DNA of 64,000 bases from Olsenella sp. KH3B4 (lineage in GTDB: Bacteria > Actinomycetota > Coriobacteriia > Coriobacteriales > Atopobiaceae), in NCBI GenBank assembly GCA_900111695.1, contig FOHD01000002.1:248001-312000 (forward strand). The letters run 5' to 3'. Under the pieces are notes generated by a model. The model saw only the letters and a program-made list of their open reading frames with translations, had not been told where the DNA came from and ran no database searches. How positions within the stretch are numbered: the first letter of the stretch is position 1; every line of letters starts with the position of its first letter. This document shows, in pieces, positions 2,353 to 47,259 of the stretch. The position numbers and the translations under genes were made by a program.

Positions 2353-2367
2353 CAAACTTTTTGTTTG
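2353..2367. promoter_or_regulatory. Purine-island operator, site 1 (upstream of ygeY)
   Basis: CAAAC-TTTTT-GTTTG, extended to a 19-bp palindrome at 2351-2369. It lies 65 bp before the ygeY ATG. A possible -10 (TATTGT, minus strand) follows 11 nt downstream. It is a member of the CWAAC-N5-GTTWG family described in the findings. Confidence 0.6.
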
Positions 2368-2556
2368 GTTGACCTAATTAAAGCACGTGCGAGAGGGAAT
2401 TCAAGGGCCTTTGCCAAACTGCTGATTTTTGTCGCAGACGGTACTCTTGGCGCGGTGGACGGCGGGGCGCGAGGGCGACGCCGGGGGGGTGACGCCGGAG
2501 GCGAGGGCCGGAGGCGAGGGGTAACGCCGCAGAAACGCCCCCTCCGGCGCCGGGGT

Positions 2557-2612
2557 GGCGCCACAGCGAGGGTTTCGTACGCAGTTGCTGCGGGAGCGCG
2601 CCCTCCGGCACC
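2557..2612. repeat. 56-nt GGCGCCACAG repeat, copy 1
   Basis: Begins GGCGCCACAGCGAGGG and ends CCTCCGGCACC, with the core TTTCGTACGC and TTGCTGC. The ends form an imperfect inverted repeat. Related copies are at 22670-22725, 62323-62376 and 62384-62439. Confidence 0.7.
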
Positions 2613-2723
2613 AAGCTGTGACGGTCTTCTCGCCGATGCCGCGTCATTTCGCCATTTAAGGGTGCCTAACCGTTCGAGAAAAGCCTAAACGGCGAGAATC
2701 CGCGGCATCGGCCCCAGAGGTCA

Positions 2724-2748
2724 GCGGAGAATATCGCTTTTCTTTAAA
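2724..2748. repeat. 24-nt repeat, copy A (inverted)
   Basis: GCGGAGAATATCGCTTTT followed by TCTTTAAA. It is the reverse complement (with a few changes) of the copies at 2784-2808 and 3488-3511, so copies A and B form an inverted pair. Confidence 0.6.
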
Positions 2749-2783
2749 TGCAAATCGCGTTTGCCCAGTTGGCGAGTACAACT

Positions 2784-2808
2784 TTTAAGAAATAGCGATA
2801 TTCTTCGC
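2784..2808. repeat. 24-nt repeat, copy B
   Basis: TTTAAGAAATAGCGATATTC followed by TTCGC. It is in direct orientation with the copy at 3488-3511, and together they flank the kinase fragment and the 49-nt repeat. Confidence 0.65.
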
Positions 2809-2898
2809 AGGCCTCTCCGAGGAAGAGCTCCGGGCGCGGGGGGCGCCGCAGCCGGCGCGGGTCCAGCGCATGGGGCAAGCCGGCGGTCCATCTCTCTG

Positions 2899-3120
2899 GT
2901 GGTGCGACGGGTGATGGGCGTGACCTCCGTGAGCGTCGAGGATTACTACAGCCCCACCGCGCAACCGAGCTTTGAGGATGGGCTGCCGCAGACGACGAAG
3001 GCCGACAAGGCCAATCACGGATTTGGCATGCGGTCCATGCGTGCAATTGTCGAGCGATACGGCGGGACGCTCGTGGCACGGGCCGAAGATGGGGTCTTCC
3101 ACCTGGACATCATGCTGTAA
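2899..3120 (+). pseudogene. C-terminal fragment of a GHKL-type sensor histidine kinase
   Basis: About 70 residues end at a stop at 3118-3120. They include SVEDYYSP, then TTKADKANHGFGMRSM and AIVERYGGTL, which match the G-box end of an AgrC/ComD-like HATPase domain (GxG followed by an amphipathic helix and a closing strand). No H-box, N-box or membrane part is present upstream; the reading frame before 2899 is low-complexity repeat-like sequence. It is therefore a remnant, not a working kinase. It lies on the strand opposite to the nearby two-component system and is not derived from that kinase, which has a different architecture. Confidence 0.6.
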
Positions 3121-8480: not shown

Positions 8481-9704
8481 CTACTCGGCGTCCGCGCTCT
8501 GCCATGCGCCGTTCCAGACGATCTGGCGGTAGCGGACGGGATCGGTGTCGCCCTCGGTCGAGAAGAGCAGGACCTGGGAATCGGGACCGAGCTCGAGCGC
8601 CTCGCGGAACTCGGCGTAGGCGGGGTCGCACATGATGGTGGAGATGACGCCCATGCCGACGGCGCCGGACTCGCCAGACGTGACCGCGGGGTCGCCCTTG
8701 ACGGGGGCGGCCAGCATGCGCATGCCCTTGGCGCTGACCCAGTCCGGGCAGCTCACGAACGCGTCCGCGTGGTTGCGCAGGATGTCCCAGCCGATGGTGT
8801 TGGGCTCGCCGCACGCGAGGCCGGCCATGATGGTCTTAAGGTCTCCGCCCACGATGCGCGGGTCGCCGTCGGCCGCGACGGCGCCCTGGTAGAGGCAGTC
8901 GGCGGCGCCGGCCTCCATGATCACGAACTTGGGTGGGTTGCTCGGGAAGAGGTTGGAGAAGAAGCCGACCATGGAGCTTGCGAGCGAGCCCACGCCAGCC
9001 TGGACAAAGACGTGGGTGGGACGGTTGACCTCAAGCTGGCGCAGCTGGTCCGCTGCCTCAGCGGCCATGGTGCCGTAGCCCTGCATGATCCACGACGGGA
9101 TCTTGGTGTAGCCCTCCCACGCGGTGTCCTGCACGATCACGCCATGCTCGGTCTGCTCGGCCTCCTTGGCGGCAAGGCGCACGCAGTCGTCGTAGTTGAG
9201 CTCCTCGACCGTGACCTTGGCGCCCTCCTTGGCGATGTTGTCGAAGCGGGTCTTCGTGGAGCCCTTGGGCATGTGCACCACAGCGTTCTGGTGCAGGCGG
9301 TGGGCAGCCCATGCCACGCCGCGACCGTGGTTGCCATCGGTTGCGGTGAAGAAGGTCGCGTGGCCAAAGTCGTGCTCGAGCTGGTCGGACGTGAGGTAGT
9401 CAAAGTCGCAGTCCGCCACGTCGCGGCCGGTCTCCTCGGCGATGTAGCGTGCCATGGCAAAGGAGCCACCGAGCACCTTGAACGCGTTGAGGCCAAAGCG
9501 GTAGCTCTCGTCCTTCACGTAGAGGCCGCCCAGGCCAAGGCGACTGGCCATGCCGGAGAGGTTGGCGAGCGGAGTCACGGAGTACTGCGGGAAGCTCTTG
9601 TGGAACGCGCGGGCCTTGGCAACGTTCTCCAGGCTCATGACCTGCAGGTTCTTGTCCTCGCTCTTGGGCATGTGGTTGGTGACCCACTTGAACTTAGGCT
9701 CCAT
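8481..9704 (-). CDS. ygeX: 2,3-Diaminopropionate ammonia-lyase YgeX
   Basis: 407 residues, close to E. coli YgeX (about 398). A fold-type II PLP enzyme: the cofactor lysine is Lys76 in GLNAFKVLGG, and TDGNHGRGVAW and ESGAVGMGVI provide substrate/phosphate binding. It splits 2,3-diaminopropionate into pyruvate and two ammonia molecules. In gut anaerobes that use urate, this is the proposed last step releasing pyruvate and nitrogen from the purine skeleton. GAGGGGAG precedes the ATG. It is separated from ygeY by the Bce-like module, and an operator-like palindrome is at 9773-9787. Confidence 0.95.
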   Translation of the reverse strand: MEPKFKWVTNHMPKSEDKNLQVMSLENVAKARAFHKSFPQYSVTPLANLSGMASRLGLGGLYVKDESYRFGLNAFKVLGGSFAMARYIAEETGRDVADCDFDYLTSDQLEHDFGHATFFTATDGNHGRGVAWAAHRLHQNAVVHMPKGSTKTRFDNIAKEGAKVTVEELNYDDCVRLAAKEAEQTEHGVIVQDTAWEGYTKIPSWIMQGYGTMAAEAADQLRQLEVNRPTHVFVQAGVGSLASSMVGFFSNLFPSNPPKFVIMEAGAADCLYQGAVAADGDPRIVGGDLKTIMAGLACGEPNTIGWDILRNHADAFVSCPDWVSAKGMRMLAAPVKGDPAVTSGESGAVGMGVISTIMCDPAYAEFREALELGPDSQVLLFSTEGDTDPVRYRQIVWNGAWQSADAE

Positions 9705-9772
9705 GGTGCTCCCCTCTCTACGCGCCGATCCCGGCGCCCAATGGACTAGAAAAAGAAAAACTGTCTTACTGC

Positions 9773-9787
9773 CTAACTATTTGTTAG
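9773..9787. promoter_or_regulatory. Purine-island operator, site 2 (between ygeX and guaD)
   Basis: CTAAC-TATTT-GTTAG, a clean palindrome 69 bp before the ygeX ATG and 177 bp before the divergent guanine deaminase. It could serve both genes. Confidence 0.65.
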
Positions 9788-9868: not shown

Positions 9869-9915
9869 CGGGACGGATGAGACAAAGGGACAGTCCCTTT
9901 GTCTCATCCGTCCCG
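9869..9915. repeat. TGAGACAAAGGGAC palindrome, copy 1 (longest)
   Basis: A perfect 23-bp inverted repeat with a single central A: CGGGACGGATGAGACAAAGG, then GAC, then the mirror half. It is the only copy not at a convergent 3' end; it lies 48 nt before the guaD start. Confidence 0.9.
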
Positions 9916-9927
9916 ACTCGCTAGACT
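9899..9927 (+). promoter_or_regulatory. Candidate guaD promoter partly inside the palindrome
   Basis: TTGTCT (9899-9904) and TAGACT (9922-9927) are 17 bp apart and each match the sigma-70 consensus at four of six positions. The -35 would be supplied by the repeat element. Confidence 0.35.
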
Positions 9928-9963
9928 CGTTGGTGCGTAGGCAACAAAGGAGAGGTCGGCGGC

Positions 9964-11331
9964 ATGGCAGCAGACGTTCGGCAGGCATTTCTCGGCTCGT
10001 TTTTCCACACGCCCACGTATGGCGCGTTTGAGTACCTGGAAAACGCGCTTATCGAGGTTGACGCCAACGGCACGATTGCGCGCGTGCTGCGTGCCGACGA
10101 TCCCCGCCATGACGAGCTCGTGCGCGCCTACCAAGAGTCCGGCGTCCTTGTTGAGCTGGGCGAGGGGCGCTATGGCCTCCCCGGCTTTGTAGACCTGCAC
10201 GTGCACGCGTGTCAGTGGCCGCAGGCGGGCATTGCGTTGGACGAGCCGCTCAACCGCTGGCTTCTCGAGCGCACGTTCCCGCTTGAGGCAAAGTTCGCAG
10301 ACGTCGAGTTCGCCCGCCTGGTCTACGGCGACCTTGTGCGCCAGCTTCTGTCGCGTGGCACCACGACCGTGGTCTACTTTGGCAGCGCGCACCTCCCGGC
10401 CACGGTGGAGCTTGCCCGTGCCTGCGTTGACGCAGGTCAGCGTGGCCTTGTGGGCAAGACCGTGATGGACGACCCCGCCGCGAACCCCACCTACTACCGC
10501 GACGCGTCCCCCACGGAGGCCGTCAGGCAGACGGCCCAGCTCATCCGCGAGGTCGAGTCCATGCGGCCGGACGCGCCCCAGGGCGTCTGGCCAGTGATCA
10601 CACCCCGCTTCATTCCAAGCTGCACCGACGAGGTCCTTCGCGGGCTTGGCGACCTTGCTGCGGAGCACGACGCCTACGTTCAGAGCCACTGCAACGAGGG
10701 CCAGTGGGAGCACGACACGGTGCTTGCGCGCTTTGGCAAGGAGGACCCCTACGCCCTGCGCGACTTTGGCCTTCTCCGCGAGCACTCGATCATGGCGCAC
10801 TGCACCTTTCTCACGCCGGACGAGGGCGCGCTCTTTGCGCAGGTGGGTGCCGGTATTGCCCACTGTCCCATCTCCAACGCGTACTTTGCGAGCAGCGTCC
10901 TGCCGGTTAAGCGCCTGCGCGCGCAGGGCGTGCACATTGGCCTGGGCACGGATATCTCGGGCGGGTTTAGCCCCAACATGTACGACGACATTCGACAGGC
11001 GGTCATGGCCTCGCGCATGCTCGAGACGGGCGTCGATGCGCAGAGGCCTGAGGCGGAGCGCGGAGCGGGGAACGCACGCATCTCGGTTGTAGAGGCGCTC
11101 TACCTGGCTACGGCCGGCGGTGCGGAGGCGCTTGGCCTGCCCGTGGGAACCTTTGAGCCCGGGCGTGCCTTTGACCTGCAGGTTGTTGATACGCGCCTGC
11201 CATATGCGGACCTCACCGGCTTTGGCGTCTTCGATGCGCCGGAAGATCGTCTGGCGCGCATCCTCTACCTCTCCACGCCCGACAACATCCGCCAGGTCTA
11301 CGTGCAGGGACGCCGAGTCATCGAAAAATGA
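9964..11331 (+). CDS. guaD: Guanine deaminase (amidohydrolase superfamily), paralogue 1
   Basis: 455 residues, usual for the GuaD amidohydrolase family. The metal motif is FVDLHVHACQWP with His79 and His81; later ligands lie in VQSHCNEG, AHCTFLT and GLGTDISGG. It converts guanine to xanthine plus ammonia in the cytoplasm, feeding the xanthine dehydrogenases. AAAGGAGAGG precedes the ATG. It is the only plus-strand gene in this part of the island. Its TGA is the first part of a palindromic repeat (11328-11358). A second, diverged paralogue lies at 19479-20762. Confidence 0.92.
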   Translation: MAADVRQAFLGSFFHTPTYGAFEYLENALIEVDANGTIARVLRADDPRHDELVRAYQESGVLVELGEGRYGLPGFVDLHVHACQWPQAGIALDEPLNRWLLERTFPLEAKFADVEFARLVYGDLVRQLLSRGTTTVVYFGSAHLPATVELARACVDAGQRGLVGKTVMDDPAANPTYYRDASPTEAVRQTAQLIREVESMRPDAPQGVWPVITPRFIPSCTDEVLRGLGDLAAEHDAYVQSHCNEGQWEHDTVLARFGKEDPYALRDFGLLREHSIMAHCTFLTPDEGALFAQVGAGIAHCPISNAYFASSVLPVKRLRAQGVHIGLGTDISGGFSPNMYDDIRQAVMASRMLETGVDAQRPEAERGAGNARISVVEALYLATAGGAEALGLPVGTFEPGRAFDLQVVDTRLPYADLTGFGVFDAPEDRLARILYLSTPDNIRQVYVQGRRVIEK

Positions 11332-11358
11332 GACAAAGGGACAGTCCCTTTGTCTCAT
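11328..11358. repeat. TGAGACAAAGGGAC palindrome, copy 2
   Basis: ATGAGACAAAGGGAC, one A, then the exact inverse. It supplies the TGA stop of guaD and lies between convergent guaD and the purine permease gene, so it may act as a bidirectional 3' end element. Confidence 0.9.
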
Positions 11359-11423: not shown

Positions 11424-12818
11424 TTACTTCTCGTCACTCGAGCCGTTGCCGCCATTCCGGAGCGGCCTGAGGTTGCGCTGCTCGGGCGTGTTGTCCTCGG
11501 GCGGCAGAACGCTGTTCAAGATGATTGCCATGACGGCGCAGGGCGTGATGGCCGAGGTACCAAAGATCGTGGAGATCCACTCGGGCATACCAGGGCCGGC
11601 GAGCGAGCCAGAGACCTGCGCGATACCAATGCCAAAAGCCACCGAGATGCCAAAGACGGTGCAGGCGCGCGGCGTGAGGCCGTCCTTCACGAGGATTCGG
11701 ATGCCGTTCAGGGTGATGGTGCCAAAGACGCTGATGGTTGCGCCGCCAATGACGGGCTGCGGAATCATGAGGAGCAGCGCCGAGAGCTTGGGGCATAGGC
11801 CAGCGGCGAGAAACACGAACGCCGCTCCGCCAAAGACCCACTTGTTGATGACTTTGGTGCTCACGATGATACCCACGTTCTGGCCGAAGGCCGAGGTGGG
11901 AAGGCCACCAAAGAAGGACGAGATGATGCTCACCAGACCCTGCGCCTTGATGGCGCCGCCAATCTCGCGCTCGGTGGGCATGCGGTCCATCGAGCCGGCG
12001 GATGCCGCGGAGAGGTCGCCGATCAGCTGCACGTTGACCATCACGTAGACCACGCCGAGCGTGATGCACGCGGCGGGGTTGAACTCGATGGCGTACGGCA
12101 TGAACTGTGGGAGCGAGAACCACCCAGCGCTGAGCACCTCGGAGCCATCAACCATGCCAAACGGGATAGCAACGACGCAGCCGATGATGATGCCAAAGAA
12201 GATGGAGCCGAGCTTGAGCACGCCCTTCCCAAAGTTAGCCAGCGCAAAGACCACAGCAAAGGTGATGAGGCCAACAACCCAGTTGTAGATGCCGCCAAAG
12301 TTTGCCGAACCAGCGCCGCCCGCCATGTACTTGATGGCCGTGGGATACAGCGAGACGCCGATGGTGAAGATTACGGTACCGGTTACCAGCGGCGGGAAGA
12401 GGCTGCGCACCTTGCTGTAGAAGACGCCAAAGAGAATGGCCACGATACCGCCCACGAGCTCGGCGCCGAGAAGCACCGAGAAGCCAAACTGCGCGCCAAC
12501 CGCCTGGAACGCAGGCAGGAAGGCAAACGACACACCGGTGAGGATGGGAAGCCCCGCGCCGATGCGGCCAAACAGCGGGAACTGTTGGAGCAGTGTGTCG
12601 ATGGCGGAGAGAATCAGCGCCACTTGGATGATGGCGGTCTCCTGCTCCTGCGTAAATCCGCAGGTAGTAGCTATCATCATGGCCGGCGTGATGACGCCTG
12701 CGAACGACGCAAGCACGTGCTGCAGAAACATGGGAACGAGCGACCCAATTGGCGGCAGTCCGTCTCGCCTGAAGAGCGATTCGTCGAGCTCCCGCTCCGC
12801 CTGTGCCTGCGCTGCCAT
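11424..12818 (-). CDS. NCS2-family purine (xanthine/urate) permease
   Basis: 464 residues from the ATG at 12818 (GGGGAGG before it). A hydrophobic protein with about 12-14 membrane segments, the NCS2 N-terminal motif QHVLASFAG and the substrate-region motif FGGLPTSAFGQNVG. This is the nucleobase:cation symporter-2 family of XanQ, UacT, PbuX and PucK; the ASFAG and GQNVG forms fit xanthine or uric acid uptake better than uracil, but specificity cannot be fixed by eye. E. coli has xanQ and uacT in the equivalent cluster. The operator-like palindrome at 12919-12933 precedes it. Confidence 0.88.
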   Translation of the reverse strand: MAAQAQAERELDESLFRRDGLPPIGSLVPMFLQHVLASFAGVITPAMMIATTCGFTQEQETAIIQVALILSAIDTLLQQFPLFGRIGAGLPILTGVSFAFLPAFQAVGAQFGFSVLLGAELVGGIVAILFGVFYSKVRSLFPPLVTGTVIFTIGVSLYPTAIKYMAGGAGSANFGGIYNWVVGLITFAVVFALANFGKGVLKLGSIFFGIIIGCVVAIPFGMVDGSEVLSAGWFSLPQFMPYAIEFNPAACITLGVVYVMVNVQLIGDLSAASAGSMDRMPTEREIGGAIKAQGLVSIISSFFGGLPTSAFGQNVGIIVSTKVINKWVFGGAAFVFLAAGLCPKLSALLLMIPQPVIGGATISVFGTITLNGIRILVKDGLTPRACTVFGISVAFGIGIAQVSGSLAGPGMPEWISTIFGTSAITPCAVMAIILNSVLPPEDNTPEQRNLRPLRNGGNGSSDEK

Positions 12819-12913
12819 GCGAGCCTCCCCCGAGCGCCTCCGCGCTCCACCGGATGTCCTTGACGTGCTCAAGCGTGCCATAGGCCGCTTTGCCGCGACA
12901 AATTATTAGTCTG

Positions 12914-12938
12914 ATTGCCATACAATTTGTTTGGCAAT
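12914..12938. promoter_or_regulatory. Purine-island operator, site 3 (upstream of NCS2 permease)
   Basis: Core CATAC-AATTT-GTTTG at 12919-12933, embedded in a 25-bp near-perfect palindrome with ATTGCC/GGCAAT arms. A minus-strand -10-like TAATAA follows 10 nt from the core and about 90 bp before the ATG. Confidence 0.6.
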
Positions 12939-14543: not shown

Positions 14544-14690
14544 GGTGACTCCTCTCCTGCGTCCACGCACGGCCGACGTCCTCACGTCCAGGCAGAACCT
14601 TGCGAAAGACCTTCTTGACTGCAGCTTGCGTCCGTCTGGGGGCGTCCTCACGCCAACCCTGTCCCTGGCAGACAACTCTCATATATGCAC

Positions 14691-14730: not shown

Positions 14731-14745
14731 ATAACTGTTTGTTAG
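14731..14745. promoter_or_regulatory. Purine-island operator, site 4
   Basis: ATAAC-TGTTT-GTTAG, 16 bp upstream of ModE-like box 1 with respect to the minus-strand gene. Confidence 0.55.
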
Positions 14746-14909
14746 GATGTCATTACAAATTATTTGGCGTGGGCCGATGAGCGGCAACCCTGCGCCCCCA
14801 AGCGAACTGTCCCCTGCGCAGAAGCACATCGCGGTATTATCGGCTCAGTGAAACCCCGCGTCCTGTCAGGCGCGCCGCCTTTGACGCGGCACCCCGGAAC
14901 GGAGAAATC

Positions 14910-35737: not shown

Positions 35738-35780
35738 TGCGATTCCTCTCCAGAAACGCATTTCCGTGGGGACGTGAGGC

Positions 35781-35850
35781 GTGCGCGGCGCCACGGGATC
35801 CGCGCACGTCATGGCAGTGGCGCCTCAGGCGTCCTGCCGGGAAGACGCCT
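35781..35850 (-). other. Hairpins between ssnA and ygfK
   Basis: AGGCGTC/GACGCCT (35827-35850) touches the ssnA stop, and GTGCGCGG/CCGCGCAC (35781-35807) follows in the 111-bp gap. Neither has a T-run; they may adjust the ssnA:ygfK ratio. Confidence 0.4.
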
Positions 35851-37204: not shown

Positions 37205-37258
37205 AGGACCTCTCCTCCTTGCTACATGCCGCAGATCAGCTACGGCCCAACCTGTGTT

Positions 37259-37284
37259 CGTCACGGCCCTCTCATGCCGTGACG
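37259..37284 (-). other. Hairpin in the ssnA leader
   Basis: CGTCACGGC and GCCGTGACG with an 8-nt loop, 55 bp before the ssnA ATG. It could be part of a structured leader; I could not match it to a known riboswitch. Confidence 0.4.
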
Positions 37285-37428
37285 GCCGGGCGTTGCGCGA
37301 ACGCGACTGCGCCGCATGGGCACCCGACTACCCAGCTGCAAACGAAGCGCAGGTACGAGGTACTTCCCCGTTAGCCTCTCCCTGCGAATCACCCCTTTGG
37401 CGAATCTTCGCACTTCTTGTAATACAAC

Positions 37429-37443
37429 CTAACAAATATTTTG
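37429..37443. promoter_or_regulatory. Purine-island operator, site 8 (upstream of ssnA)
   Basis: CTAAC-AAATA-TTTTG. On the minus strand it is followed by GTTG and TATTAC, a -10-like hexamer at the same 4-nt spacing seen after sites 2 and 5. Confidence 0.5.
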
Positions 37444-37711: not shown

Positions 37712-37743
37712 CTAACAATTTGTTAGATTTCAGGTGCTAGTAT
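37712..37743 (+). promoter_or_regulatory. Purine-island operator site 9 with extended -10 of the regulator gene
   Basis: CTAAC-AATTT-GTTAG (37712-37726) is the most perfect palindrome of the family. An extended -10 (TGC-TAGTAT, 37735-37743) follows 11 nt later; no good -35 is seen, so the operator occupies the -35 position and suggests autoregulation. Confidence 0.6.
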
Positions 37744-37854
37744 TTGCTCGTTGTAGGTTTTCCTGTCCATCGCAACCGTACCCCGTAGTAGTACCCGTCG
37801 CGCCACCAGGTGCACGGCCAAGAGGCGGACCCGCCAGAAAGGGGTCGAGCAATC

Positions 37855-38508
37855 ATGAAGAAGTCTGAGGTCGAGTTTCTCTCTCGCCTTGCGAAGGGCA
37901 TCGCTGCTCAGTTTGGAAGCAACTGCGAGGTCGTTGTACACGACCTCGAGTCCGATGACCCCGACAGCACCATCGTCGCAATAGAGAATGGCCAGGTCTC
38001 CGGCAGAAAGCTCGGCGACGGCCCATCCAACGTGGTGCTCAAGGCCTTGAGCTCTGACCCGGACAAGCTCCAAGATCATTTTGCCTACCACACGCGCACC
38101 GAGGACGGACGCGAGCTGCGCTCGAGCACGGTCTTCTTCCGCGACGAGACGGGCAAGCCGGTTGCCATCTTCGCCATCAACTACGACTCCACGCCCATCA
38201 TGGCACTCCAGAACATGCTCAAAGACTTCACCTCGCTTGCCAGCCCCTCGACCGACGAGCCGGACGTCATCCCTCACAACGTGAACGACCTTCTCGACGA
38301 GCTCATAGACCAGAGCGTACGCCTGGTGGGCAAGCCTGTTGCCCTCATGACCAGGGAGGACAAGGTCAAGGCGATAGGGTTCCTCAACAGCTCCGGCGCC
38401 TTCCTCATCACCAAAGCGGGGCAGAAGGTCTGCAACTACTTTGGCATCTCGAAGTACACGCTCTATAGCTATATGGACGAGGCCAAGGAGCAGAAGAAGG
38501 AGGGGTAG
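37855..38508 (+). CDS. YheO-like PAS/helix-turn-helix transcriptional regulator
   Basis: 217 residues from the ATG at 37855. The N-terminal half is a YheO-type PAS domain (FGSNCEVVVHDLES, residues about 15-110, with FAINYDSTP near 100), and the C-terminal part is an HTH of the HTH_22 group (KVKAIGFLNSSGAFLITKAG, then YFGISKYTLYSYMDEAK). PAS-HTH regulators of this family sense small metabolites and regulate adjacent catabolic genes. It is transcribed divergently from ssnA-ygfK and followed after 4 bp by an M20 hydrolase gene. It is the only obvious DNA-binding protein in the purine island, so it is the prime candidate to bind the CWAAC-N5-GTTWG sites; this is inference. Confidence 0.85.
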   Translation: MKKSEVEFLSRLAKGIAAQFGSNCEVVVHDLESDDPDSTIVAIENGQVSGRKLGDGPSNVVLKALSSDPDKLQDHFAYHTRTEDGRELRSSTVFFRDETGKPVAIFAINYDSTPIMALQNMLKDFTSLASPSTDEPDVIPHNVNDLLDELIDQSVRLVGKPVALMTREDKVKAIGFLNSSGAFLITKAGQKVCNYFGISKYTLYSYMDEAKEQKKEG

Positions 38509-38512
38509 GCGC

Positions 38513-39739
38513 ATGTGCGAGAAGCGCCACACCGACGACGAGGCAACGCGGCTCACGTCACAGCTCGTGGGCATCGAGAGCACGGATCCCGGAACGTTTG
38601 AGGGTCATATCGAGGAGTTTGTCCGCGCGTGGCTTGAGGAGCGGCGCATGCGCGCGGGCAAGCTTGCAGAAGCCGTGCGCATCGAGGAGCTCGAGGCGCT
38701 GCCAGGACGCAGTTGCCTGAGGGCGCTGATTCCCGCTGCGAGCTCACGTGGCCACGCTACCGCCCCCGCCGACCTCACGCTCCTCTGCCACATGGACACC
38801 GTGCGCGTTGGCGCCGGCTGGAGCAAAGACACGCCGGCCTTCTCGCCCGTCCTGCGAAACGGCGAGCTCTACGGCCGCGGCTCGTGCGACATGAAGGGTG
38901 GCCTGGCCTGCGCGCTTCTCGCCTTCTCCGACGCCCTTGACGAGGTGGGCAGGCGCGGTTGCCTGCCGGAACGCTCGTTGGCGCTTGTCTGCACCGTGGA
39001 CGAGGAGGACGAGATGCGCGGCTCCGAGGCAGCCATCCGTGCGGGTTGGCTGGGAGCCACCGGGTGGGTTCTCGACACGGAGCCCACTGATGGCCGCGCA
39101 CGGGGCTCGCACAAGGGTCGTACCTGGTACGTCATCGACATGCACGGCGTCACCGCACACGCCAGCACGCCGTGGCGCGGCGCGGACGCCATTGCTGCCA
39201 TGGCGGAAGCCGTCTGCCGCATTCGAGGCGCCATAGCCGAGCTGCCCGCCCACCCCGAACTTGGCCACTCGACCGTCACGTTTGGGCAGATCGCGGGCGG
39301 ATACAGCCCCTACGTGGTACCGGACGAGTGCCACGTGACCATCGACATGCGGCTTGTTCCGCCCACGGGCTCGGCTGATGCCGAGAAGATCGTGCGTGAC
39401 GCCTGCTCCGCAGCCGAGGCGGCCGTACCCGGCACACACGCCGACGTACGCTGCACCGGAGACCGGCCACCCATCGAGCTTGACCCCGCATCGCCGCTGC
39501 TCGCAGCCCTTGCGCACGCAAGCGCGGAGGAATGGGGCGAGACGCCGGCAACGGACGTCTTCACCGGCTACACCGACTCAGCCGTGGTGGCAGGCACCTG
39601 TGGAAACCCCACGTGCCTCTCATACGGTCCGGGCAGCCTCGAGCTTGCCCACAAGCCCAACGAGCACGTTCCCGTGGCAGACCTCGCGCGCGTGCGCGCA
39701 GTTCTCTCGCGCCTTGCAGCCAATACGCTGTGGAGCTAG
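38513..39739 (+). CDS. M20-family peptidase/deacylase (ArgE/DapE-like)
   Basis: 408 residues from the ATG at 38513 with GAAGGAGGGG before it, 4 bp after the regulator. Zinc motifs: LLCHMDTVR (near residue 90), GRGSCDMKGGLA, the catalytic acidic pair in TVDEEDEM, and the C-terminal metal His in SLELAHKPNEHV. The dimerisation domain begins around HGVTAHAS. The family removes acyl, carbamoyl or succinyl groups from amino acids. Coupling to the purine regulator suggests a ureido or N-acyl intermediate of ring breakdown as substrate, but an ordinary N-acyl-amino-acid deacylase role is equally possible. Confidence 0.85.
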   Translation: MCEKRHTDDEATRLTSQLVGIESTDPGTFEGHIEEFVRAWLEERRMRAGKLAEAVRIEELEALPGRSCLRALIPAASSRGHATAPADLTLLCHMDTVRVGAGWSKDTPAFSPVLRNGELYGRGSCDMKGGLACALLAFSDALDEVGRRGCLPERSLALVCTVDEEDEMRGSEAAIRAGWLGATGWVLDTEPTDGRARGSHKGRTWYVIDMHGVTAHASTPWRGADAIAAMAEAVCRIRGAIAELPAHPELGHSTVTFGQIAGGYSPYVVPDECHVTIDMRLVPPTGSADAEKIVRDACSAAEAAVPGTHADVRCTGDRPPIELDPASPLLAALAHASAEEWGETPATDVFTGYTDSAVVAGTCGNPTCLSYGPGSLELAHKPNEHVPVADLARVRAVLSRLAANTLWS

Positions 39740-39939: not shown

Positions 39940-40800
39940 ATGCTCAGACACGCAACCAACGTCGTTAAGGGATATCGCACACAGGACGGCGCCGGAGTGA
40001 GTCTCGTACGGGTGCTGGGCGACCAGACTGCACGCGACTTTGACCCCTTCCTCATGTTGGACTCGTTCGACAGCGTCAATCCCAACGACTACACCGCGGG
40101 ATTCCCGCTCCACCCCCACCGAGGCATAGAGACCATAAGCTACCTGCGCGAAGGCGCGATGCACCATCGTGACACCATGGGGTTCGAGGACACCGTTGCC
40201 TCGGGCGAGGTGCAGTGGATGTGCGCCGGCTCGGGCGTGGAACACGAGGAGACCATTCCGGCCGCGCGACGCCTGCTTGGTGTGCAGCTGTGGCTCAACC
40301 TCCCCGCCTCCGACAAAATGGCACGGCCCACCTACCACGCCGTGAAGCGCGATGCCATCGAGTCCGTGCCGCTCGACGGCGCCGTGCTACGTCTGCTCAC
40401 CGGGCGATATGTGGACGGGAACGGCAAGGCCCACCAGGGGTTTGTTGGCGAGCACCTACCGCTTGACTACTACGAGCTCACCGTGGATGCAGGTCGTAGC
40501 ATCGAGGTCCCCGTGGGCGAGGACCGCTCGGTCCTGGCGTTCACGCTCGAGGGGCCTGCGCTTATCGGCGGCCTTCCGTTGGGCGAGAAGACCGCGGTCA
40601 AGCTTGTGGAAGGAGACCGCGTAGGCATCACCGCCACAGGCGAGAAGCCCTCGGTGGTGTTGCTCATGAGCTCCGTTGCCCTGCGCGAACCCATTGCATG
40701 GGGCGGGCCCATCGTGATGAATAGCACCACCGAGCTACGGCAGGCCTTCCGTGATCTGGACGAGGGAACCTTCATCAAAGAGGGCGTCCAGACCCTGTAG
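39940..40800 (+). CDS. Pirin family protein
   Basis: 286 residues. A bicupin with the pirin metal motif FPLHPHRGIETISYL, then AMHHRDTMG and the GSGVEHEE segment that closes the metal site. Bacterial pirins act as quercetinase-like dioxygenases or as redox and metabolic modulators; the role here is not evident. AGAGGAGAA precedes the ATG. It stands alone between the purine regulator unit and the molybdenum-cofactor operon, which ends convergently 34 bp away. Confidence 0.9.
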   Translation: MLRHATNVVKGYRTQDGAGVSLVRVLGDQTARDFDPFLMLDSFDSVNPNDYTAGFPLHPHRGIETISYLREGAMHHRDTMGFEDTVASGEVQWMCAGSGVEHEETIPAARRLLGVQLWLNLPASDKMARPTYHAVKRDAIESVPLDGAVLRLLTGRYVDGNGKAHQGFVGEHLPLDYYELTVDAGRSIEVPVGEDRSVLAFTLEGPALIGGLPLGEKTAVKLVEGDRVGITATGEKPSVVLLMSSVALREPIAWGGPIVMNSTTELRQAFRDLDEGTFIKEGVQTL

Positions 40801-40834: not shown

Positions 40835-41374
40835 CTAGGAGCGCTCGGCCGCGCAGTCGGCAGGACCCCCGCGCAGGATGCGAAGCCCGTGCGCAATGGG
40901 CCCGATAACCGCAGAGATGTTCTCGCACGCAGCCTTGGGGCTACCGGGCAGGTTCACCACGAGCGTGCGGCCCAAGATACCCGCCGCCTCGCGCGAGAGA
41001 CACGCATGCGGCGTGATGGCCATCGATGCTGCACGCATGGCCTCGGGGATGCCGGGCGCCATGCGCTCGCACACGGCAGCGGTGGCCTCGGGCGTCACGT
41101 CGCGAGGCGAGAAGCCCGTGCCGCCCGTGGTAAGGACAAGCGCTACGTCGGCGGCAGCGGCCTCGCGGATGGCGTCCTCGATCTGCGGACGCTCGTCGGG
41201 TACCACGCTCGTGGAGACAATACGGTAGCCCCGCTCGCCGAGAAGCCCCGCAAGCGCCGGGCCAGATGCGTCCTCGCGCTCGCCGCGCGAGCATCGGTCG
41301 CTCACGGTAATGACTGCCGCAGTGTAGGTCTCACTGTCTGCTACCTGCGGTTTGTTTGTCTCGCTATGACTCAT
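40835..41374 (-). CDS. mog: Molybdenum cofactor protein MogA/MoaB
   Basis: 179 residues from the ATG at 41374 (GGAAAGTAGGAG upstream). The MPT-binding signature LVLTTGGTGFSPRDVTPEAT and the second loop NLPGSPKAACENI are present. It adenylylates molybdopterin before molybdate insertion. Last gene of the modABC-moa operon, 5 bp after the MoeA-like gene. MogA and MoaB are hard to tell apart; only the family is certain. Confidence 0.9.
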   Translation of the reverse strand: MSHSETNKPQVADSETYTAAVITVSDRCSRGEREDASGPALAGLLGERGYRIVSTSVVPDERPQIEDAIREAAAADVALVLTTGGTGFSPRDVTPEATAAVCERMAPGIPEAMRAASMAITPHACLSREAAGILGRTLVVNLPGSPKAACENISAVIGPIAHGLRILRGGPADCAAERS

Positions 41375-41379
41375 GTCTC

Positions 41380-42453
41380 CTACTTTCCAAATGGGCAGAC
41401 GGGGAAGGTGCACGGCGAGCAGTGCAGGCACAGGCCGCCCTCGCCCAGCTGCACCAGGTCACGACGGCGAACCTCCACGCCTGCCGCAAGGCGGGGCAGC
41501 ACCAGGTCGAAGACAGTGGCCGCGTTGTACATGACGCAGCCGGGCAGCCCTACCACGGGCACTGTTCGGGCCTCGCCTGCCGCGTCCTTCTCGTCAAAGT
41601 AGCCCACAAGAAGCATCGCGCCCGGCAGAACCGGCGCGCCGTAGGTCACGATGCGCGCACCGGCACGCTTGATGGCTCCGGGGGTGTTGTCATCGGGGTC
41701 AACGCTCATGCCGCCCGTGCACACCACCATGTCAACGCCAGTCGCGCGGGCCTCGTTGATGGCTGCTACCAGCGCGTCCATGTCATCGCCGGGCGTGGCG
41801 TGCCACGTGGCCTCGATGCCATAGCGCGCGAGCTTGCCCTCAACCACAGGCGTGAAGCGGTCCTCGATGAGCCCCTTGGCCACCTCGGAGCCGGTGGCGA
41901 TGATGGCCGCCGTCTTGAGACGCCACGGCTCCACGCACATGAGCGGCCCGTTTTTCTCGACGTCCGCCGCACGCTCCGCCGCCTCGACAACGGACTCCTT
42001 CACGACCAGCGGAATCACGCGCGTGCCGGCAAGGTCGTCACCCTGAGACACGGCAAAGCCGCCCTTGCGGGTGGCCACCATGACCTCCTCGCAATTGTTC
42101 ACGGCAACGAGGCGCTCGGAATCGACGAGAAACACGCCGTCACACGCCGCCTTGATGCCAATCTTGCCCTCACGGGGCTCGCCCGCAGCCACGCAGCCCG
42201 AGCCAAGGCAGAGCGCAGCCAAGCGCCGCGCGGCGTCGTCCTCGTGCAGCATGCCGGGACCGGCCTCCCACACGTAGAGGTGCTCCTTGCCCATGGAGAG
42301 CAGAACGGGGACATCCTCTGCGGTGACTACGTGTCCCTTCTTGAAGCGCGGCCCCTTGAAGCGCGGCGACCCCTTGCCGTCGCCGGGCAGAATCTGCGTC
42401 ATGTCGTGGCACAGAACGTGCCCCATAGCGTCCTCGGTTCTCACAAGCTTCAT
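41380..42453 (-). CDS. MoeA-like molybdopterin-binding protein
   Basis: 357 residues, shorter than MoeA (about 410). It keeps the MPT-binding domain ([44 protein letters not shown]) but its N-terminal half is not the usual MoeA domain. Such proteins accompany molybdenum hydroxylase clusters and probably take part in molybdate insertion or cofactor handling for them. A C-terminal [12 protein letters not shown] motif has four cysteines that could bind a metal. ATG overlaps the moaC stop by 4 bp. Confidence 0.85.
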
Positions 42454-43424
42454 GCCAATTCGTCCTCCCCCATCACGCGAACCTCGTCACCGGCGCGCAC
42501 GATGCCGCCACGCGTCACCACGCAGAAAATGCCATCGGTAGGCATGACGCACATGCCCGTAAGGCGTCGAATCTCGCAGTCGTTATGGCAGGTCTTGCCA
42601 ATCTGCGTCACCACCATGCGTGCCGGGCCAACTGCCACGGTGGTGCCCACGGGCAGGCTCTTGACATCAATGCCGCGCGTGAGCACGTTCTCGGCAAAGT
42701 CACCGGGCGCAAGGTCAATGCCCTTTGCGCGCATGAGGTCCACGGACTCGTCCGCCAGAAGACTCACCTGACGGTGCCAGGCGCCGGCATGGGCGTCGCC
42801 AGCGATTCCCTTGCCCACGACAAGCTCGATGGAGTCCACCGGGTGCTTGCGCGTGCCCTTCTTCTCCGAGATGCAAGTGGCGACCACAGTGCCGTGCGGC
42901 AGCTCTGGCGCAGCGGGTGCCACGGCCACACCCAGCGGCGCCGTGGGATCGTCGCCCTCGGCTCGTACGAAGTGGCCGGACTTGCCGCCGTCCTTCTCGA
43001 GCAGTCGCACCTCGGTGATCACCATGTCGCGCTGGTGGGCCTTGCACATGTCGTAGATGGTGAGGCCGGCAACGGACGCGGCCGTGAGCGCCTCCATCTC
43101 GACGCCCGTCTCGCCGCAGCAGCGCGTTGTTGCCGTGAAGGCAATGCCGTCCTTCTCGTACGCAAACGAGACGTCGACGCCCGTGAGCTGCACGGGATGG
43201 CACATGGGCACAAGCTCCCAGCAGCGCTTTGCCGCCATGATGCCCGCCACCTGCGCCACGGCAAGCACGTCTCCCTTGCGAACGCCGCCTGTGCGCACAA
43301 GCTCGAGCGTATCCGGACGCATGAGAACCTTGCCGGCGGCACAAGCCACCCGCTGGGTCTTGGGTTTCTCGGACACGTCCACCATGCGGGCGCGACCCTC
43401 CTCGTTGAAGTGCGTGAGCCCCAT
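42450..43424 (-). CDS. moaC: MoaC-MOSC fusion protein
   Basis: 324 residues. Residues 1-160 are MoaC (cyclic pyranopterin monophosphate synthase): [33 protein letters not shown] and the catalytic region [21 protein letters not shown]. Residues 175-324 are a MOSC domain (GIAGDAHAG, the Cys-containing [11 protein letters not shown], and [11 protein letters not shown]). MOSC domains bind molybdopterin and sulfur; joining one to MoaC links an early synthesis step with a late sulfuration-type function. The start has no strong ribosome-binding site but lies 3 bp after moaA. Confidence 0.9.
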
Positions 43425-43427
43425 GGC

Positions 43428-44375
43428 TCATCCCCCTATCTCGTTCATGGCGCGCAGCGAGTCGCTCGCACGCCCGTTGTCCATCCTGTGCCCACGCGGC
43501 TTTGCCGCGATGCCGGCGCGTATGGCCTCAGCCAGGTCCTGGCCAGAAAGGCCGCGCAAGTTGACCTCGGCCGCAGAGTGCAGGCAGGGCTTGAGGCGAC
43601 CATCTGCCGTCACGCGTATGCGGTCGCAGCTGCTGCAGAACCGGTGGGTCATGGGACGTATGAGACCCACGCTGCCCTTCCAGCCGGGCGCTTGGTACAG
43701 CTCGGAGACGCCCTGGCCGCCTACTCTCACAAGCTCCGGCACGGCCGAGAGAACCTCGTCTGCCGAGACGAAACGCCCCTTTGGCCAGCCGGCGCACTCC
43801 CCCATCCGCATGAGCTCGATGAAGCGCACGGTGAGGTCGCGGTCGCGCGCGAGCTCGGCCAAGGGCCGTAGCTCGTCATCGTTGACGCCTCCGATGAGGA
43901 CGCAGTTGATCTTGGTGTTGGCAAAGCCTGCGTCGTGGGCCGCCGCAAGGCCGGCCAGCGCGTCGGCAAGCGTTCCGCGACGCGTGATGGCCTTGTAGCG
44001 CGCAGCGTTGAGCGTGTCCAAGCTCACGTTGAGGCGTGTGAGCCCCGCATCCCGCAGGCTGGCCGCAACGGGCGCGAGCAGCGTGGCGTTGGTGGTCATG
44101 TCCACTTCGTCGATGCCCGGCACGGCTGCGACCATGCCCACCAAATCAACGATGCCACGTCTCACCAGGGGCTCTCCGCCCGTGAGGCGCACCTTGCGCA
44201 CACCCAGCGATGCCGCCGCGGCTACAATGTCGCGCATCTCCTCGAAGGAAAGGATGTCGGCGTGCGAGAGCATGGGCACGCCGTTTTCTGGCATGCAGTA
44301 TACGCAGCGGCAGTTGCAGCGGTCGGTCACCGAGAGGCGCAGGTAGCGTATGTCGCGTCCAAACTCATCGCGCAT
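43428..44375 (-). CDS. moaA: GTP 3',8-cyclase MoaA
   Basis: 315 residues from the ATG at 44375, overlapping modC by 11 bp. A radical SAM enzyme with the N-terminal cluster motif CNCRCVYC (Cys20, 24, 27), the C-terminal cluster FCSSCDRIRV plus a later Cys in KPCLHS, and the terminal Gly-Gly that is needed for activity. It catalyses the first step of molybdenum cofactor synthesis from GTP. The overlap with modC couples cofactor synthesis to molybdate uptake. Confidence 0.95.
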   Translation of the reverse strand: MRDEFGRDIRYLRLSVTDRCNCRCVYCMPENGVPMLSHADILSFEEMRDIVAAAASLGVRKVRLTGGEPLVRRGIVDLVGMVAAVPGIDEVDMTTNATLLAPVAASLRDAGLTRLNVSLDTLNAARYKAITRRGTLADALAGLAAAHDAGFANTKINCVLIGGVNDDELRPLAELARDRDLTVRFIELMRMGECAGWPKGRFVSADEVLSAVPELVRVGGQGVSELYQAPGWKGSVGLIRPMTHRFCSSCDRIRVTADGRLKPCLHSAAEVNLRGLSGQDLAEAIRAGIAAKPRGHRMDNGRASDSLRAMNEIGG

Positions 44376-45510
44376 GTGACGCGCCTCCGATCTCTTCGTT
44401 ATCCATAGCGATTGTGTCATTCATCTTGTCGTTACTTGCCGAGACAAGCGGCATGACCGTCTGGGGCGGTGCCACGAGCACCAGCTGTGCGGGGTTGCCC
44501 AGCGCGGCCCACGCGCCCTTCTCGCACTCGTAGCGAAGCAGGGCCCCGCCTGGCGTGCGCGCCATCACGATTGTCGAGAACGTCGAGTCGATCACGCGCT
44601 CCACGGTGCAGGGAATCGCGTTCCCGCCAAGAGCGCCTGCCGCAACGTCACCCGCCGCATGTGCCTCAAAGTAGTGAGCGCGAATGCCCACGTGCGTGAC
44701 GCCCTCGGGCACGGGCAGTGAGGTTCTCAGCGCAACGCCCCAGTCCTCGCACGCAAGCAGGCCCGGACCCGCCACATGCGCGCGGCTCACGTTCTTGCAG
44801 CCGCTGATGAGCGCCGCCGCAAGCGTGGCCGGCGAGGCAAAGAGTTCGTGCACGCTCACCTTTGCGTCCGAGCGACCACAATCAAGCACGCAGACCGTGT
44901 CGCACATGCGGTAGACCTCGTCGCGGTTGTGCGAGACGTAGACCGCCCCGCCGGGAAACCCGCGCAGGACGTCTGTCAGCTCAAGCTCGAGCTGCCAACG
45001 CAGGTACCCATCAAGCGCCGAGAAGGGCTCGTCCAGAAGGATGAGCTTCGGATTACTCGCGAGGATGCGCGCCATGGCGCAGCGCTGCTGCTGGCCACCG
45101 GAGAGCTGGGCGGGCTTGTGGTGCTCGAGACCACCCAGACGCATGGCGGCAATCTCCCTCGCCGCTCGCTCCGCGCGCTCCTCCCGCGTGGAGCCTGCCG
45201 CGCCGGCGCGCACGTTCTGCTCGACGGTCATGGTGGGAAAGAGCGCGTAGCTCTGGAAGAGGTAGCCCACGTGGCGCTGCTGCGGCGGCAGATTGATGTG
45301 CGCGCTGGAGTCGAAGAGCGTGCGCCCGCCCAGCACGATGCGCCCCGCATCCGGTCGCTCGATACCCGCGATGCACTTGAGGGTCATGGACTTGCCGCAG
45401 CCAGAGGGGCCAAGCAGCGCCATGATCTCGTCCGGGCGCTCGATGGAGAACGAGACGTCCAGCGAGAAGGACCCAAGCCGCTTGGTGATGTCGACCTCGA
45501 GCACCGTCAT
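44365..45510 (-). CDS. modC: Molybdate ABC transporter ATPase ModC
   Basis: 381 residues. Walker [10 protein letters not shown] (unusual Met where Thr/Ser is normal), signature [15 protein letters not shown], Walker [14 protein letters not shown]. The roughly 130-residue C-terminal region looks like the Mop/TOBE molybdate-sensing domain of ModC. ATG overlaps the modB stop by 4 bp. Confidence 0.92.
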
Positions 45511-46190
45511 GCCGCAGACCCCCTAACGCGGGCAGAGCGCGAACGCGCCTCCAGCATGTTCATGGCGAGAAGCACCACGGCGCTTATCGCCAGGTTCACG
45601 AGGACCCACTGGAAGGCCAACCCGTCCTCGCCCGTACGCCAGAGCTGGTAGACCGTCGTGGATATGGTTGCGGTGGCACCAGGGGTGTAGCCGGCAACCA
45701 TCGAGGTTGCGCCGTACTCGCCCAGCGCCCGCGCGAAGGCCAGGACCGAGCCCGCGATGATGCCCTGCCTGCAGGCCGGCATCTTAACGCGCCAGAACAC
45801 CCACACGTTGGATTTGCCCAGCGTGCGACCTGCATCGGCCAGACTCTGGTCAAAGCTCTCGAACGCCCCGCGCGCCGTACGGTACATGAGCGGGAAGCTC
45901 ACCACCACGGTGGCGAAGATCGCCGAGCACCACGTCATGGTGAGCCTCACGCCAAAGACGCCCATCACCCAGGCGCCAATGGGACGCCTGGGGCCGAGAA
46001 GCACCAGCAGGAGGTAGCCCACAACGGTGGGGGGCAGCACCAGGGGCAACGTGAGCACCACGTCGAGGATGCCCTTTACCACCCGAGGCGCACGCGCCAC
46101 CACGTCCGCGAGCCAGATGCCAAGAAGATAGACAACCACCGTGGAGATGGCAGCTATTCTCAGCGAGTTGAGGAGCGGATACCAGTCCAT
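45507..46190 (-). CDS. modB: Molybdate ABC transporter permease ModB
   Basis: 227 residues with five membrane segments and the EAA loop ADAGRTLGKSNVWVFWRVKMP, normal for ModB. Six bp separate it from modA. It forms the channel of ModABC. Confidence 0.93.
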   Translation of the reverse strand: MDWYPLLNSLRIAAISTVVVYLLGIWLADVVARAPRVVKGILDVVLTLPLVLPPTVVGYLLLVLLGPRRPIGAWVMGVFGVRLTMTWCSAIFATVVVSFPLMYRTARGAFESFDQSLADAGRTLGKSNVWVFWRVKMPACRQGIIAGSVLAFARALGEYGATSMVAGYTPGATATISTTVYQLWRTGEDGLAFQWVLVNLAISAVVLLAMNMLEARSRSARVRGSAA

Positions 46191-46196
46191 GCCGTG

Positions 46197-47087
46197 CTAC
46201 ACCTCGGCAAGCGGCGTGAAGCCAACCTTTTCGAAGCAGTCGCTGGCGTCCTTGGTCTTGAGGAAGTCAAGGAAGGACGCGGCCAGCTCGGGCTGGAGGG
46301 CGTTTTTGGTGGCTGCGGCCGGATAGACCACGCGGCCACACATCTCCTCGGTAGCCTCGTCCGCCATCGCGAGGTTTGCCGAGGTGGCGTCGGTCTTGTA
46401 GATAACACCGCAATCGACGGCCGCCTCAGAGACCTGTGAGGTGACCTCCTTCACGTTGGTGCCATAGGTGATACAACCAGCGTTGGCCAACTCGGTCTCG
46501 TCGAGGTTGTAGTAGGCAAGGATCTTCTGGGTGTACTGCCCCACGGGCACGTCTGAGTTGCCCATGCCCAGCAGGATGTCGTGTGCCTGGAGCTTCTGCG
46601 CCATGTCATCAAAGCCCTGGATGGCCTTGGGGTTGCCCTCGGGCACGCAGAGCGTGACCTTGTTCTCGAGGATGTCAAAGCGCGTGTCGTGGTTAATGAA
46701 GTCGAGGCCCTCGTCGTTGCCGGAGGCGGCGCCGGCGTCGAGCTGGTTCATCTGCTTCTGGCCGGCGGAGATGAAGACGTCGCAGTCTGCCCCCTCCTGG
46801 ATCTGGGTCTTGAGGGTACCCGACGAGTCGAAGTTGAAGCTTATGTCCACGCCATCATTTGTAGCCTTGAAGAGATCGCCCGCCTCGGTGAGCGACTCGG
46901 TGAGCGAAGCCGCTGCAAAGACGGTGAGCGTCTTGGGCTCTGCCGTGGACGTGGTGCCTGTCGCCACCGAACCCGTGGTCTGGGTCTGGGGCTGCGACTG
47001 TGTGCCTCCGCACGCCGCCAGTCCAAGGCCTGCCGCGGCAACCGCCGCCGACACAAACGAACGCCTGGTAATGCTGGAGCCTGCCAT
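46197..47087 (-). CDS. modA: Molybdate-binding lipoprotein ModA
   Basis: 296 residues from the ATG at 47087 with AAAGGAAAG upstream. A Tat-like TRRSF, a hydrophobic core and a lipobox LAAC at the N-terminus. The mature part is ModA: LTVFAAASLTESLTE, SSGTLKTQIQEG, then NKVTLCVPEGNP. It captures molybdate for the hydroxylases of this island. It heads the operon modA-modB-modC-moaA-moaC/MOSC-moeA-like-mog, with a ModE-like box and an operator-like palindrome upstream. Confidence 0.94.
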   Translation of the reverse strand: MAGSSITRRSFVSAAVAAAGLGLAACGGTQSQPQTQTTGSVATGTTSTAEPKTLTVFAAASLTESLTEAGDLFKATNDGVDISFNFDSSGTLKTQIQEGADCDVFISAGQKQMNQLDAGAASGNDEGLDFINHDTRFDILENKVTLCVPEGNPKAIQGFDDMAQKLQAHDILLGMGNSDVPVGQYTQKILAYYNLDETELANAGCITYGTNVKEVTSQVSEAAVDCGVIYKTDATSANLAMADEATEEMCGRVVYPAAATKNALQPELAASFLDFLKTKDASDCFEKVGFTPLAEV

Positions 47088-47213
47088 AGTGCTTTCCTTT
47101 CCCTCGGTGTGATGCCTGCCTGGGGCGCATCTCTGGTGCGATGCTTTTTGCGTACCGCCCATGTGGTGCCTGTGGGCATCGCCGACAAGGATGTGGTGCC
47201 TGTCCAATGACGG

Positions 47214-47237
47214 CGTTCTTGCTTACAAACTATAACG
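47214..47237. promoter_or_regulatory. ModE-like box 3 (upstream of modA)
   Basis: CGTTCT-N12-ATAACG, 24 bp, with outer arms ACGG/CCGT making an extended palindrome (47211-47240). A minus-strand -10 candidate TATAGT (47229-47234) lies inside the box, so binding would block the promoter, as ModE does at E. coli modA. Confidence 0.65.
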
Positions 47238-47240
47238 CCG

Positions 47241-47259
47241 TTCAAACAAAAAGTTTGAA
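47241..47259. promoter_or_regulatory. Purine-island operator, site 10 (upstream of modA)
   Basis: TTCAAAC-AAAAA-GTTTGAA, a 19-bp palindrome directly before ModE-like box 3 in the transcription direction. The core CAAAC-N5-GTTTG matches site 1. Confidence 0.6.

Follow-up and report, generated by a model that had tools for sequence, protein, structure and literature searches.

The purine island of Olsenella sp. KH3B4 and its palindromic sites

The window analyzed in this work is a stretch of 64,000 nucleotides from Olsenella sp. KH3B4 (G000:C12:248001-312000), which makes up 2.7% of a genome of 2.38 Mb in 22 contigs. It harbors a purine-catabolism island, several genes of which (ssnA, ygfK, ygeX, ygeY and the xdh homologues) match enzymes of the reductive uric acid pathway, as far as these are given in the available text of PMC12507026. 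The island also holds genes for molybdate uptake and molybdenum (Mo)-cofactor synthesis, and a gene for a YheO-like regulator with the domains PAS_6 and HTH_22. Short palindromes stand before nearly all of its transcription units (Table 1), and the subject of this study is the relationship between these putative operators and the regulator.

A scan with the loose pattern CWAAC-N5-GTTWG found all the palindromes where an earlier, sequence-only reading of the window had listed them. With at most two mismatches, this pattern had 55 matches in the window, compared with 34.9 +/- 5.9 in shuffled sequences (0 of 100 shuffles reached 55). With at most one mismatch, it occurred at 114 places genome-wide, 10 of them inside the window, versus 78 for a control, the pattern read backwards. 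This enrichment is only mild, and the loose pattern alone is too weak as proof. The specificity of the pattern came from an A/T spacer: CWAAC-W5-GTTWG with at most one mismatch was found at 8 places in the genome, 7 of which lie in the window, and its backward control gave 0. These seven sites (2353, 9773, 12919, 19286, 37429, 37712 and 47243) each precede a unit of purine genes, molybdenum genes or the regulator. When two mismatches were allowed, there were 26 places genome-wide, 12 of them in the window, versus 12 for the backward control. The sites at 14731, 22481 and 29361 reach the pattern only at this level, which bears out the label "weak" that had been given to the azgA site at 22481.

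The window was also scanned with a matrix of 7 sites from three distant loci that carry the regulator (L034, L035 and L037), a test that is only partly independent because these sites had been chosen with the window-derived pattern. At 12 bits or more, this distant-loci matrix found 13 intergenic positions, corresponding to 12 distinct sites (37708 overlaps 37712), and 0 positions in genes, whereas a Markov null gave a mean of 0.41 and at most 2 in 100 runs. The previously listed sites ranked top of the window. All 13 matches precede purine-island units and the rest of the window stayed below 12 bits, in line with the claim that the motif is absent before the other modules, whose labels (galE, SOS) are those of the sequence-only reading. 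The genome scan which that reading had suggested thus found the motif concentrated on the island, with 7 of 8 strong sites (at most one mismatch) in the window, and therefore not at equal density before unrelated genes. A subset of 10 other off-window places from the loose and A/T scans was inspected; 7 lie inside script-picked reading frames and 3 between frames. One gene label needed revision: the gene behind the site at 14731, formerly "dehydratase-like", matches the double-cubane anaerobic reductase, and the site upstream of it is present as described.

Table 1. Genes and candidate operator boxes of the purine island, in window positions. Gene families were assigned by Pfam and NCBIfam profile matches.
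Feature	Position	Strand	Remarks
ygeY	905-2287	-	NF009555
Second, weaker box	2333-2347		20 bp gene-proximal of 2353; 13.1 bits
Palindrome CAAACTTTTTGTTTG	2353-2367		66 bp before ygeY start
ygeX	8481-9704	-	Pfam/NCBIfam
Weak box	9753-9767		20 bp toward ygeX; 5.8 bits
Palindrome CTAACTATTTGTTAG	9773-9787		Between ygeX (-) and amidohydrolase / guaD-like gene (+)
Amidohydrolase / guaD-like	9964-11331	+	Pfam/NCBIfam
NCS2 permease	11424-12881	-	Pfam/NCBIfam
Second box	12899-12913		20 bp gene-proximal of 12919; 13.8 bits
Palindrome CATACAATTTGTTTG	12919-12933		Before NCS2 permease gene
Double-cubane anaerobic reductase	13260-14675	-	NF040772
Palindrome ATAACTGTTTGTTAG	14731-14745		Before double-cubane anaerobic reductase gene
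Second box, far side	14752-14766		21 bp from 14731; 10.7 bits (distant-loci matrix), 16.0 bits (window matrix); polarity exception
xdh FAD and iron-sulphur subunits	15533-16908	-	Pfam/NCBIfam; xdhABC = 15533-19250
xdhA	16908-19250	-	Pfam/NCBIfam
Weak box	19266-19280		20 bp toward xdhA, adjoins likely ribosome-binding site; 4.0 bits
Palindrome ATAACAAAATGTTAG	19286-19300		36 bp before xdhA of xdhABC
Guanine-deaminase-like	19479-20762	-	Below that model's cut-off
Second permease, azgA-like	20807-22270	-	Pfam/NCBIfam
Weak box	22461-22475		20 bp toward azgA; 5.4 bits
Degenerate palindrome CACACTATTTGTTTT	22481-22495		Before azgA-like permease and guanine-deaminase-like genes; 16.6 bits (distant-loci matrix)
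Bmp-type binding proteins and ABC subunits (NupO-like)	22779-29315	-	Pfam/NCBIfam
Weak box	29341-29355		20 bp toward nupO; 3.6 bits
Palindrome CAAACAATAGTTTTG	29361-29375		Before NupO-like ABC transporter genes
Selenium-type XDH	29386-32184	-	Pfam/NCBIfam
ygfK	32744-35812	-	Pfam/NCBIfam
ssnA	35849-37264	-	Pfam/NCBIfam
Weak box	37409-37423		20 bp toward ssnA; 3.8 bits
Palindrome CTAACAAATATTTTG	37429-37443		Before ssnA-ygfK; kept in relatives
Palindrome CTAACAATTTGTTAG	37712-37726		Before regulator gene
PAS_6/HTH_22 (YheO-like) regulator	37855-38508 (open reading frame (ORF) 37810-38508)	+	PF08348, PF13309; start by alignment
M20 peptidase-type gene	ORF 38441-39739	+	Pfam/NCBIfam
Pirin-type gene	39940-40800	+	Between regulator/M20 pair and Mo-cofactor genes
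Mo-cofactor genes	40835-44420	-	Pfam/NCBIfam
modABC	44365-47207	-	modA = 46197-47207 (-); Mo-cofactor genes then follow
Palindrome CAAACAAAAAGTTTG	47243-47257		Before modA of modABC; kept in relatives

Occurrence of the motif with the regulator in the family and in a second phylum

With a match threshold of 1e-10, the regulator was found in 70 of 140 genomes of the family (67 at full strength, 3 as weak matches only), and SsnA was over its cut-off in 58. The two occurred together in 57 genomes, SsnA only in one (G106), the regulator only in 10 and neither in 72. The summed motif counts (at most one mismatch) were 353 versus 78 for the control in regulator-bearing genomes, and 149 versus 123 in the others. 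Because the genomes are related, they were also grouped by genus, and the mean motif excess was 4.2 in the 17 groups with the regulator versus 0.3 in the 25 without it (p = 4e-6). Among the 7 genera containing both kinds of genome, 5 agreed with this correlation.

The placement of sites was analyzed in 20 of the 67 full-strength genomes, representing all 17 genera with such a match, in up to 40 kb around the regulator (two regions were shorter at contig ends), using a matrix trained on the window's 10 sites. The results revealed 97 sites of at least 14 bits, 77 of which lay within 350 bp upstream of genes matching those of the window (38 kb, 5% of the DNA); 2 lay in such genes (352 kb) and 18 elsewhere (364 kb). 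A site was found for the regulator in 19 of 20 genomes and for ssnA in 18 of 19, the two being often divergent neighbours with common sites. The other units carried one less regularly (ygeX 5/7, ygeY 2/4, ncs2 4/9, azgA 3/8, m20 3/15, modA 2/2, bmp1 1/12 and xdh2 1/18). These counts indicated that the regulator-ssnA region is the constant core, around which the other units vary.

A de novo search, limited to 15-bp palindromes, was then applied to the 350 bp upstream of the regulator, with the window sites excluded as input. In the family it returned CTAACAAWTTGTTAG (log-likelihood 130.8, 22 loci; shuffles 27-30), and for a second set of 31 loci, 30 of them belonging to an Oscillospiraceae-type family, it returned the drifted form CTAAAAAWTTTTTAG (232.4; shuffles 34-47). 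Control regions downstream, available with enough unmasked bases for 17 of the 22 and 28 of the 31 loci, gave 26.5 and 51.5, respectively, with unrelated patterns. From the family set, 8 of 30 loci had been dropped as near duplicates (7 from the window's genus, 1 from a near genus), including three species with a degraded regulator-side site; among the 22 kept, L064 has no site (-5.5 bits). In the Oscillospiraceae-type family, the regulator was present at 1e-40 in 60 of 250 sampled genomes. A scan of 8 of its genomes with the drifted motif found 18 places versus 10 for the control, and the 16 places with loci were distributed between the regulator and ssnA (6), before ygeX (3, at 118-132 bp) and elsewhere (7). 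Judged by these comparisons, two phyla conserve the motif close to the regulator, ssnA and ygeX.

A second box at a fixed spacing of 20 bp

Of the 10 operators in the window, 7 are accompanied by a weaker box (at least 3 bits) exactly 20 bp away on the gene-proximal side, and none of the 10 has one at this distance on the far side; the background for such a box is 0.48% of 1260 positions. The three operators without it are those of the double-cubane gene, the regulator and modA; modA has a 4.7-bit box 21 bp toward the gene, and the regulator operator has none. The sequence-only reading, which had found the sites themselves, missed this second box. In the 20 family genomes, scored with the window-trained matrix, 15 of 27 site pairs within 60 bp are spaced exactly 20 bp, and beside 44 primary sites a 12-bit site occurred at offset 20 in 17 of 88 flanks, versus at most 2 at each of the other offsets from 15 to 60. 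Of 39 one-direction operators in these genomes, 17 have a proximal box only, 3 a distal box only, 2 both and 17 neither, and a second box was found at 10 of 16 divergent operators. The exact spacing is close to two helical turns, which suggests that two dimers would sit on one face of the DNA.

These observations bear on the notion that the palindromes merely arise by chance in AT-rich promoter DNA. The mild enrichment of the loose pattern and the count of the A/T form at two mismatches could be read in this way, but the backward control at one mismatch, the Markov null, the exact 20-bp spacing and the recovery of the motif in two phyla leave this explanation a negligible probability, and chance palindromes were ruled out by the backward-pattern, Markov and spacing controls.

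Sites in close and distant relatives, and a site upstream of carA

Twelve titled loci carrying the regulator (L026-L037) were compared with the window. The modA site was present with at most one mismatch in all 8 close loci (L026-L033), and the ssnA site with at most two mismatches in 7 of the 7 reaching ssnA, always at 14 bits or more. The regulator-side site is intact in L026 (25.9 bits), weak in L031, L032 and L033 (15.1-15.5 bits) and outside the covered part of L027. In L028, L029 and L030, a decayed form, CTTACATTCAATAAG, stands in place of the regulator-side palindrome about 121 bp ahead of the match to the regulator; their ssnA and modA sites stay. The distant loci L034 (regulator 74% identical), L035 (61%) and L037 (52%, Eubacteriaceae) each have sites near the regulator, three of them in L037. 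L036, which ends at a contig end, had no site at up to two mismatches, and a 13.3-bit one was found with the matrix. In L034, a gene for the double-cubane-cluster reductase (L034:39-1364) is accompanied by two boxes 20 bp apart (1433 and 1453). This reductase may supply electrons for urate reduction.

The sole strong site outside the window is a perfect palindrome, CAAACATATTGTTTG, at C9:262831 (L001:1501-1515), which had also escaped the sequence-only reading. The carA frame downstream of it, identified by PF00988 (172 bits), is about 245 bp away. Among 7 genus relatives, 5 have the identical site, G118 has a changed one and in G120 the alignment does not reach it; carA may therefore be a member of the regulon. 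Also upstream of carA, the stretch L001:1540-1660 resembles a short dispersed repeat, with about 69-91% identity to many other places in the genus.

A perfect and conserved site outside the island, together with the three close relatives lacking the regulator-side site, might imply that the palindromes are bound by a different, possibly global, regulator, with the YheO-like gene as just one of its targets. We regard this as quite improbable, given that the motif excess follows the presence of the YheO-like gene, that the upstream region of this gene (often common to ssnA) has a site in nearly all of the 20 family genomes, that the drifted form stands upstream of the regulator in another phylum, and that the island holds all but 1 of the 8 strong sites.

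The PAS_6/HTH_22 protein

The protein encoded at 37855-38508 matched PAS_6 (PF08348) with 125 bits and HTH_22 (PF13309) with 68.1 bits, versus gathering cut-offs of 27 and 29.6, respectively; only these two domains were matched, and no sigma-54 interaction (AAA) domain was found. The start at 37855, adopted previously, fits the protein alignment. Across the 38 aligned proteins, the C-terminal stretch FGISKYT is invariant and likely forms part of the recognition helix. The predicted structure consists of a PAS fold followed by a helical DNA-binding domain, with a predicted local distance difference test (pLDDT) value of 81.7 and a predicted template modelling score (pTM) of 0.52, so that the domains are credible and their arrangement is uncertain. 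Structures in the PDB matching this model were generic PAS/LOV proteins and VqmA, with low TM-scores, and a sequence search for a relative of solved structure gave no credible match (16 weak ones, best E-value 0.032). The closest titled relatives of the regulator were mostly Olsenella and Tractidigestivibacter records.

The sequence-only reading had assigned the island to a single YheO-like regulator, and four lines of evidence now point to the same protein. The motif is concentrated on the island; the de novo search upstream of the regulator recovers this palindrome from the family and its drifted form from the Oscillospiraceae-type genomes, which the downstream controls do not; the motif excess follows the regulator across the 140 genomes and the genus groups; and the only other match to the regulator in this genome at 1e-10, which is 31% identical, has no site of 12 bits or more within 10 kb. 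These results suggested that the protein very probably binds the palindromes, a confidence slightly lowered by the loss of the regulator-side site in three close relatives. The palindrome at 37712 before the regulator gene makes autoregulation likely.

Directly 3' of the regulator lies the M20 peptidase-type gene (38441-39739), and an M20 match is also found near the regulator in many relatives; in this genome the two genes are possibly co-transcribed. Elsewhere in the island, a cytidine-deaminase-like frame (23905-24876) lies between two genes for Bmp-type binding proteins and overlaps the next listed frame. An ORF on the opposite strand at 9904-11358 (-) matched no Pfam or NCBIfam family and was set aside in favor of the matching amidohydrolase strand.

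Proposed mode of regulation

We propose that the palindromes are the operators of the PAS_6/HTH_22 regulator, which is predicted to be a repressor of the purine island and of its own gene, and we put the probability of this reading at about 0.6. The regulator would bind the palindromes in dimeric form, often with a pair of neighbouring dimers at a 20-bp spacing, and would repress the purine-catabolism island and its own gene. A purine signal in the PAS domain would release the repression, and one protein would switch the whole urate-breakdown island on and off. At xdhA, 43 bp separate the centre of the palindrome from the start codon, and the weak box adjoins the probable ribosome-binding site, so that a bound protein would cover the promoter core, which favors blocking. 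Repression is further favored because a YheO-type relative, Cj1387c (CfiR) of Campylobacter jejuni, is reported to repress the adjacent L-PSP (RidA-type) gene, according to the available part of PMC4519771.

The same regulator could, on the other side, act on the same sites as an activator, with the strong distal dimer anchoring a weaker dimer beside RNA polymerase and a purine strengthening this second contact. The polarity of the tandem boxes, strong distal and weak proximal, also fits activators: at the 20-bp spacing, the second box is gene-proximal at 7 of the 10 window operators and distal at none, and proximal-only boxes outnumber distal-only ones among the one-direction operators of the family genomes. 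By eye, no TTGACA-like -35 element was seen ahead of the candidate -10 boxes. The weak box of xdhA, beside the likely ribosome-binding site, is however too near the gene for the usual position of an activator, and Cj1387c is a repressor as described in the same part of PMC4519771; we therefore consider activation less likely than repression.

Several further observations weigh against the proposed repressor and its regulon. A search for a -10 element at a fixed position found its best downstream offset, 19, in 6 of 51. In 3 of 7 close relatives (L028, L029 and L030), the site before the regulator is degraded and scores no more than 6.6 bits, and in a further 3 of 7 it is weak, although their ssnA sites are kept; autoregulation is thus not constant, and the former three species may have lost it. 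SsnA is not over the cut-off in 10 genomes with the regulator; 6 of these have a partial SsnA (split or at contig ends), and G034, G035, G037 and G099 carry the regulator without even a partial match. The genus g18 contradicts the correlation between regulator and motif, and g16 is tied. In the other genomes, 17 of the 39 one-direction operators lack the second box, as do 6 of the 16 divergent ones. Many orthologous units elsewhere have no site, with xdhA carrying one in 2 of 18 cases and nupO in 3 of 16. G018 has its molybdenum genes about 30 kb away and no site before modA, which implied that molybdate control is probably a lineage trait.

More tentatively, we suggest that the PAS_6 protein might be the dedicated purine sensor of anaerobic urate degradation in both Actinomycetota and Bacillota. 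Its signal would be urate or 2,8-dioxopurine, the reduced form of urate, and it would act through a tandem operator of one strong and one weak box, directional and phased at a fixed 20 bp. This switch might, in the Olsenella lineage, also have captured molybdate uptake, cofactor synthesis and the double-cubane reductase, and the supply of enzyme, metal and electrons would then rise together.

Relation to known systems and implications

Anaerobic urate-degrading gut bacteria affect host urate. In E. coli, UacR (YgeV) is a sigma-54-type activator of urate genes. It is linked to the same reductive urate pathway genes as the regulator of the window, which differs from it in having no match to a sigma-54 activator domain. 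Cj1387c, as far as described in the available part of PMC4519771, has the same two-domain PAS_6 and HTH_22 architecture; in contrast to it, the regulator of the window has ssnA and the M20 peptidase-type gene as neighbours and no adjacent L-PSP (RidA-type) gene, and its sites cover many units. The island shares ssnA, ygfK, ygeX, ygeY and xdh homologues with the clusters of the reductive uric acid pathway, for which PMC12507026 treats the enzymes and their distribution; in its available text, the term "pas" occurs 0 times and "regulat" 2 times. In the open-access literature, we found neither a description of this regulator or operator nor an account of what turns on urate-breakdown genes in Gram-positive lineages. 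One-component regulators with a local regulon are a known kind of system, and this member, assigned to anaerobic urate degradation, appears to be new.

The system could offer a purine-responsive switch for laboratory use. The motif could help to find further genes of the pathway, for which the double-cubane reductase and carA are candidates. Moreover, a candidate regulator with a defined operator makes the switching-on of anaerobic urate genes testable.

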